Source: Patescibacteria group bacterium (lineage in GTDB: Bacteria > Patescibacteriota > Patescibacteriia > UBA2196). From it: DNA of 33,805 nt. Within the stretch, counting starts at the first letter, position 1. Each line of letters opens with the position of its first letter. The notes under the pieces are model-generated. The model made no database searches and was not told where the DNA came from. It saw only the letters and a program-made list of their open reading frames with translations. The stretch is taken from contig JAQTPI010000007.1 in NCBI GenBank assembly GCA_028748975.1, forward strand, positions 1 to 33,805, given 5' to 3'. The translations under genes and the position numbers were made by a program. Below, in pieces: positions 2,961 through 33,025 of this stretch.

Positions 2961-2970
2961 AAACACAAAT

Positions 2971-3075
2971 GTTAAAGGTCAAATTTCAAATGTCAAATCA
3001 ATATCAAAATCCAAAGCTCAAAATAATTGGCGCGAAGCGCCAATCCTTTGACATTTGACATTTGGATTTTATCAT
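2971..3075. repeat. CAAATGT-type short dispersed repeat with central hairpin
   Basis: aaatttcaaatgtcaaatcaatatcaaaatcc...attggcgcgaagcgccaat...tttgacatttgacatttggatttt. Confidence 0.7.
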
Positions 3076-3138
3076 TTAAAATAATATTATCTTTGGCTTT
3101 CCTGCTTATAAAAACTACGTTATTTTACAGAACTTACT

Positions 3139-3957: not shown

Positions 3958-3990
3958 CGCCCGGGTCACTCGGGCGGACTTTTTTATTTT
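3958..3990 (+). terminator. Intrinsic terminator
   Basis: ccgcccg-ggtcact-cgggcgg followed by acttttttatttttt. Confidence 0.85.
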
Positions 3991-4007: not shown

Positions 4008-4041
4008 TCTTAAAATAAAGATAATCATCTTTATTTTAAGA
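4008..4041. repeat. Inverted repeat, 15-bp arms, 4-nt loop
   Basis: cttaaaataaagat-aatc-atctttattttaag with one extra t/a pair. Confidence 0.85.
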
Positions 4042-4063: not shown

Positions 4064-4101
4064 ATCCATACATCAATCACGATCGTGATTGATGTATGGA
4101 T
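4064..4101. repeat. 38-bp perfect palindrome
   Basis: atccatacatcaatcacgatcgtgattgatgtatggat. Confidence 0.95.
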
Positions 4102-4138
4102 TACTATTTAAAACAAACTATCAAATATTAAATAAAAA

Positions 4139-4167
4139 AACGATCCCGAAAACTCGGGATCGTTTTG
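4139..4167 (-). terminator. Terminator of ABC transporter gene (possibly bidirectional)
   Basis: aaacgatcccga-aaac-tcgggatcgttttgtttt. Confidence 0.85.
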
Positions 4168-4182
4168 TTTTCATTTTTATTA

Positions 4183-27818: not shown

Positions 27819-27858
27819 ATTCTGTAAATACCTCACGATCGTGAGGTATTTACAGAAT
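27819..27858. repeat. 40-bp perfect palindrome
   Basis: attctgtaaatacctcacgatcgtgaggtatttacagaat. Confidence 0.95.
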
Positions 27859-27874
27859 ATTTTTATAATTTTAT

Positions 27875-27912
27875 TATCTAGTAAAATTCACAGTCGACGA
27901 AATTACTAGATA
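27875..27912. repeat. Inverted repeat, 10-bp arms, 18-nt loop
   Basis: tatctagtaa-aattcacagtcgacgaaa-ttactagata. Confidence 0.8.
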
Positions 27913-27939
27913 TAAAAAAATAAAAAATATTAAATTTTT

Positions 27940-27981
27940 AAAATTATACAAAACGCGCGGTCGTCCGTTTTGTATAATTTT
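27940..27981. repeat. Inverted repeat, 16-bp arms, GC-rich 10-nt loop
   Basis: aaaattatacaaaacg-cgcggtcgtc-cgttttgtataatttt. Confidence 0.9.
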
Positions 27982-28109: not shown

Positions 28110-28652
28110 ATGGAACCCGTTAAAAAAATTCTGGTCACCATCCTGGCTCTGGTGGCAATCACTTTGCCGGTTTTGGCCCAAAACAACATCCAGCGAGTAA
28201 GCGACAATGACAAAAAACTCGTCGCTCTCTATGCAGAATTTTTCACCAAAAACAGACCTCCTGAAATTAATCCTGAAAGGATCGATAGTACTTTTGCTCC
28301 CTACCTTACCACTCACCCCGAAACCGACGCAATCGAACCCAACTGGCGCTATGCGTCCCTTTACGAATGCGGTTTTCCCGGAGCAGACGATTTGCTTCAG
28401 CGTGAGCTCGTCTATATCTGGAACCGTGGGTCTGGCGTGAAAGTTCACGGTCTGGCATTAATCTACCCCTTCGGCGGCGAAAGGGAATTGATCAACGACT
28501 TCAACATCCTGAAGGTTCAGTACAAAAACTTGCGATTCTATTATAAATCATTTGTCTATCATGGACAAAACTACTTGCGGGTCGGCATAACCACCGAAGC
28601 CGCCAAAGACAAAGTGGCTCACAAAATCATCGGCCAACACATCATGTATTGA
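28110..28652 (+). CDS. Orphan secreted protein, 180 aa
   Basis: SD aaaaggagg; signal peptide MEPVKKILVTILALVAITLPVLAQ; ends TGA. Confidence 0.78.
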   Translation: MEPVKKILVTILALVAITLPVLAQNNIQRVSDNDKKLVALYAEFFTKNRPPEINPERIDSTFAPYLTTHPETDAIEPNWRYASLYECGFPGADDLLQRELVYIWNRGSGVKVHGLALIYPFGGERELINDFNILKVQYKNLRFYYKSFVYHGQNYLRVGITTEAAKDKVAHKIIGQHIMY

Positions 28653-32883: not shown

Positions 32884-33025
32884 CCACAGATTGAGCACAG
32901 ATTTTCACAGATACACAGATTTATTTTTCTTGTCATCCCCGCGCAAGCGGGGATCCAGAAATCTGTGCCTATCTGTGTATTTGTGTGCTATCTGTTTTAT
33001 ATTTATATCTGTGCAAATCTGTTAT
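32884..33025. repeat. CACAGAT-type dispersed repeat flanking a family A core
   Basis: cacagattgagcacagattttcacagatacacagattt...gtcatccccgcgcaagcggggatccag...aaatctgtgcctatctgtgtatttgtgtgctatctg...atctgtgcaaatctg. Confidence 0.8.

Follow-up and report, generated by a model that had tools for sequence, protein, structure and literature searches.

The perfect 40-bp palindrome at positions 27819-27858 of the window (the whole 33,805-nucleotide stretch analysed) is probably a solo, non-autonomous terminal palindrome of tiny mobile elements that are widespread in Patescibacteria and that, although REP/RAYT-like in their organization, seem to be based on a protein combining a winged helix with a Cas2-like domain. 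An earlier note had described this palindrome and the one at 4064-4101 as long and perfect, with a common 12-bp core and different self-complementary arms, which was confirmed; invisible to its reader was that such sites appear to belong to a mobile element with a gene of its own, either as its ends or as solo copies. The relevant units of the window, none of which has a strand assigned, are as follows:

27819..27858, focal solo terminal palindrome, perfect, 40 bp, with 20-bp arms of arm class A (attctgtaaatacc)
27833..27844, core TCACGATCGTGA of the focal palindrome, with the centre CGATCG
4064..4101, second solo palindrome, perfect, 38 bp, arm class B (atccatacatcaa)
4077..4088, core TCACGATCGTGA of the second palindrome, the same 12-mer as at 27833..27844
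27940..27981, third palindrome-like unit, 16-bp arms with ATTATACAAAACG, a 10-nt middle and the centre GGTC
27875..27912, probable decayed palindrome, 38 bp, TATCTAGTAA - 18 nt - TTACTAGATA

Within the own genome of the window (G000; 904,313 bases, 98.9% complete), the core TCACGATCGTGA is present in 12 copies versus approximately 0.05 expected from base composition, and its reversed control in none, which contradicts the possibility, raised in the earlier note, that the 12-mer occurs at these two sites only and at chance frequency. All 12 copies form the centre of a palindrome whose arms, 10-24 bp long and usually perfect, fall into at least five classes; six of the sites flank three genes, and the other six, both window sites among them, are “solo”. 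The genome-wide palindrome count was keyed on this 12-mer only, so the invariance of the centre among the 12 sites holds by construction, which is not the case for the arms: in an ungapped alignment of these sites, 13 of the 20 arm pairs have changed on both sides, and the cells changed on both sides number 53, versus 17.4 upon shuffling and 7-11 in slid registers. The arms, that is, drift pairwise around a constant centre by compensatory changes, and such perfect symmetry in an otherwise free sequence suggests either selection on a hairpin or the copying of one arm from the other, with fold-back synthesis around the common core being a possible way of keeping it. The previously proposed family of sites recognized by centre and structure is, overall, partly supported: a family with a constant centre and compensatory arms does seem to exist, and its members may be recognized in this way (see below). 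The resemblance to the ParB site parS that had also been pointed out, however, leads nowhere, as both sequence and arms differ upon inspection, and the core sites are dispersed over several contigs rather than matching the parS consensus near an origin.

Folded as DNA hairpins, the focal and the second palindromes reach -16.8 kcal/mol (z -10.5 versus shuffles) and -16.3 kcal/mol (z -7.1), respectively. Class A arms are also seen at both ends of an element at G000:C8:2882-3552 and in solos at C1:16717 and C6:53797, and class B arms at C1:92519 and at one end of an element at C4:33512. Two more palindrome-like units of other arm classes follow right after the focal palindrome (27875-27981), making up a cluster of three. 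The distal one (27940-27981) has a second copy at G000:C2:34046, adjoining a one-mismatch core at C2:34020, and the unit between the two others (27875-27912), which overlaps a computed inverted repeat and folds more weakly than the focal and second palindromes (z -3), is a probable member of the family, judging by its length and position only. Similar palindrome doublets are found at G000:C2:34020-34107 and C12:10764-10851. The junction holding the cluster, at the start of a ribonucleotide reductase gene, spans approximately 1.1 kb, versus approximately 140 bp at the orthologous junction of the sister genus G002. Beside the cluster lies a 180-aa ORF (28110-28652) with a signal-peptide-like start and without a Pfam match, the DNA of which is missing from the G002 junction. 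Adjoining the palindrome at 4064, there is also a perfect hairpin with 15-bp arms (4008-4041; TCTTAAAATAAAGAT-AATC-ATCTTTATTTTAAGA), and at 32886-32995 and 2967-3077, between genes, short degenerate repeats (CACAGAT; TTTGACATTTGG) make up imperfect inverted repeats.

The palindromes that are not solo reveal what the solo ones have probably been derived from. Three palindrome pairs, 603-625 bp apart, each enclose one gene of approximately 176-190 codons, and a genome search brought the homologues of this gene in the own genome to five, the other two of which likewise lie between palindromes, having different arms around the CGATCG centre (e.g., TTTGTTCAACAAATACGTCGATCGACGTATTTGTTGAACAAA and TGTCTTCCAATCGGGACGATCGTCCCGATTGGAAGACA) and, at their second ends, palindromes that are imperfect but have the outer arms of the first. 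As these two have other arms, the gene-palindrome association (five out of five) is independent of the 12-mer used for the search, and in the elements examined, this gene is the only one to recur between palindromes. One of the elements (C4:33494-34141; L005 1483-2129) has its two ends in different arm classes, B and D, and a Cas2 domain 84% identical at the DNA level to that of the C8 element, both ends of which are class A, with the N-terminal part being diverged; judged from these similarities, it looks like a chimera.

Of 56 relatives, 14 have homologues of the gene, with as many as 10 in one genome. Of 380 evenly drawn Patescibacteria genomes, 122 have them; as many as 9 were scored in one genome of this survey, and several contain internal stops. 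The core TCACGATCGTGA is present in 10 of the 56 relatives, namely, in 7 of the 14 gene carriers versus 3 of the 42 others, and its reversed control in none. Palindromes scoring at least 12 were found at 50 of 153 gene ends (81 distinct genes), versus 5 of 233 ends of other ORFs from the same loci and 1 of 459 shuffles; a second set gave 20 of 60 gene ends phylum-wide and 30 of 39 in the genus g213, where control gene ends have them as well (18 of 191; solo copies or terminators). Of 24 comparisons within elements, 18 showed arms common to the two ends, versus 7 of 552 comparisons between elements (12 of 26 versus 0 of 650 in the second set). A full element (palindrome, one gene, palindrome) measures 593-900 bp (median 661), and a typical palindrome 38 bp (median), with CGATCG and CGGCCG, followed by CTATAG, being the commonest centres. 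For 28 of the 81 homologues, on the other hand, no palindrome scoring at least 9 was found at either end, and some homologues are syntenic between species (L078/L085/L087 and L075/L081/L090), which indicates vertical inheritance or decay for part of the family. A contig recorded as Verrucomicrobiota (L100; JAADHD010000137.1) encodes a longer homologue (258 aa) followed by a perfect 44-bp palindrome with the centre CGGCCG, representing either spread beyond Patescibacteria or mis-binning.

Evidence for mobility comes, among others, from one intergenic site of g213, located upstream of a gene whose translation reads like a cysteinyl-tRNA synthetase, which varies between species: full elements, each with different arms, occupy it in three species (G339, G418 and G331), a solo palindrome is found in G402 and G346, and G257 and G221 have no element there. 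This presence/absence at an orthologous site is seen at the resolution of the locus rather than of the base, the flanking DNA being approximately 66-77% identical. The three resident proteins are 48-52% identical and resemble one another no more than they resemble copies at other places in the genus, which argues against vertical descent of a single insertion; as far as sequence comparison can tell, the pattern suits a site where insertion or replacement has happened repeatedly. Solos elsewhere in G339 have the outer arm of its resident element (ATCGGAC) and inner bases that differ, yet are mostly self-complementary. In addition, approximately 700 bp of the element in L086 are shared with L088 and L093 at approximately 80% DNA identity, the flanks being unrelated to those of L086. 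The sister genera G001 and G002 have neither the core nor the gene; the earlier note had held absence from sister strains against its own reading, but such absence suits a mobile element better than an artefact. Target duplications were not seen (direct flank similarity of 3.75 within elements versus 3.70 between them), so the defining feature of a classical insertion sequence is missing, and the joined flanks of the elements examined have no long ORF across them, which makes the insertions intergenic. At the g213 site, L237 (G346:C59:12500-16500) also has a small GIY-YIG-nuclease-like ORF between ‘tgtcattgcgagcg...cgaagcaatc’ repeats. A phage or plasmid origin was rejected, as the protein had no match in phage or plasmid records, nor in viral contigs.

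The protein encoded by the element (170-200 aa) consists of an N-terminal winged helix and a C-terminal Cas2-like domain (Pfam PaaX_M). Three element proteins match PF20803 (PaaX_M, ‘Cas2-like domain’; E 1e-22, 1e-22 and 4e-9) with 36.8-80.4 bits versus a gathering cut-off of 24, and score just over the cut-off of TIGR01573 (NCBIfam cas2; 25-26 versus 24.5), the Pfam Cas2 cut-off being missed. An alignment of 35 homologues shows the retention of IFD..E, one Arg and one Ser, which are residues typical of Cas2, and the predicted structure (pLDDT 82, pTM 0.61) comprises an N-terminal winged helix and a C-terminal Cas2 fold, with E. coli PaaX (8a39, E 2.3e-5) being its best solved structural match, followed by Cas2 proteins. 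PADLOC returned weak Cas2 models only, and a defence system was therefore rejected. Neither Cas2 nor PaaX proteins are known to act as transposases.

Among the known systems, REP/RAYT (TnpA-REP) “REPtrons” (PMC8266576, PMC3733652) seem to work in a similar way: there, too, short palindromes are scattered over intergenic DNA, singly or in clusters, an element with one gene has at its two ends the palindromes that also exist as solos, and every gene has a palindrome class of its own. The element protein, however, has a winged helix and Cas2/PaaX_M instead of the Y1 HUH nuclease of RAYTs, and the palindromes differ in being perfectly two-fold, with a conserved centre and free arms; by inspection, no constant tetranucleotide comparable to the GTAG (or CGTC) tag was seen in the flanks. 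PaaX proteins (8a39) share the winged helix and the central Cas2-like domain, but are approximately 305 aa long versus approximately 180 aa, and the element proteins are multi-copy, palindrome-flanked and far below the curated cut-off of the PaaX regulator equivalog TIGR02277 (48 or 38 bits versus 264.55); judged from these scores, they belong to the PaaX_M domain family without being PaaX regulators. With CRISPR Cas2 and VapD they have in common the Cas2 fold and the conserved Asp, Arg and Ser, unlike CRISPR Cas2, however, they have a winged-helix domain, the loci read have no CRISPR context, and Cas1 was not found in the own genome, which speaks against CRISPR Cas2 membership in spite of the TIGR01573 score. 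Casposons, which use Cas1 and, as far as known ones are concerned, carry no Cas2 (PMC6452270), are mobile elements as well, with links to the CRISPR adaptation module, whereas the present element has a Cas2 relative and no Cas1 casposase. With neither Cas1 nor a Y1_Tnp (PF01797) match in the own genome, ownership by a RAYT or a casposon was rejected.

How such an element might move can be outlined as follows: a protein dimer would sit on the two-fold symmetric palindrome, probably extruded as a hairpin or cruciform; its winged helix would read the arms, which are specific to the element, and its Cas2 domain would be positioned at, or would cut, the conserved centre (CGATCG, CGGCCG or a related one). 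The element, or a single palindrome, would then be moved or copied into AT-rich intergenic DNA without target duplication. Over all pairs, arm similarity is practically uncorrelated with the similarity of either protein domain (rho 0.04); arms are mostly common only to elements with an N-terminal identity of approximately 0.55-0.7 or more, and the centre tends to follow C-terminal identity, a trend confounded by g213, so these trends give a weak hint at such a division of labour. That the winged-helix-Cas2 protein is itself the mobilizing nuclease, acting on hairpin or cruciform palindromes with its winged helix reading the arms and its Cas2 domain the centre, so that the elements would form a new class of transposable element in prokaryotes, is a proposition that we consider evenly balanced.

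Could the protein instead be an autoregulated PaaX-like transcription factor, with the palindromes serving as operators at its own promoter and at target genes? Both domains are common to PaaX regulators, and each gene does have a palindrome at its 5' end, but an equal palindrome is situated at the 3' end, solos also occur between convergent genes, away from promoters (e.g., 4064-4101), a genome can have as many as 9 or more diverged copies, each with its own arms, and presence/absence at one orthologous site would be hard to reconcile with operators, all of which makes this explanation unlikely. Also quite unlikely is that the palindromes are self-mobile or moved by another transposase, the Cas2-like gene being a passenger or a domesticated partner: solo and flanking palindromes are equally numerous in the own genome, and some gene copies are syntenic and may be domesticated, yet arms match the flanked gene rather than the genome, the elements examined have no other recurring gene, and Y1, the only transposase class searched for, is absent from the own genome.

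It seems very improbable that the palindromes are transcription terminators, or RNA hairpins that the Cas2-like protein might cut, acting as an RNase within a toxin-like module. With its T-rich flanks, 27819-27858 does score as a terminator on either strand, and Cas2 belongs to the VapD interferase family (PMC6452270), but the focal solo is located between divergent genes, the one at 4064 lies behind two ordinary terminator-like hairpins (3958-3985 and 4134-4169), and a terminator has no need for matching arms at both gene ends or for a constant centre; the tRNA was the sole Rfam match, so a known RNA family was rejected as well. An assembly or fold-back artefact, finally, can practically be dismissed: chimeric fold-back reads can produce perfect palindromes, but not plausibly the same intergenic anatomy, with both ends and compensatory differences between copies, in dozens of independent genomes.

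The reading favoured here, a REP/RAYT-like mobile element with a winged-helix-Cas2 protein, would concern a family that is provisionally taken as unrecorded so far: a literature search that did not extend to preprints and most subscription journals found nothing on palindromes with PaaX or Cas2-like genes. Genomes of Patescibacteria are very reduced, and yet approximately one third of those sampled have the gene, often in multiple copies. If the Cas2-like protein does move the element, it would represent a kind of transposase distinct from the DDE, HUH, tyrosine/serine recombinase and Cas1 classes, and would tie palindromic repeats to a Cas2 fold in a context other than CRISPR. According to a review on how CRISPR originated, an ancestral casposon with a Cas2 homologue might yet turn up (PMC6452270); the present element is not a casposon, but it renders the question of Cas2 in mobile DNA testable and, if the reading is true, would provide a Cas1-independent mobile-element setting for a Cas2 relative, as sought by models of the origin of CRISPR adaptation.
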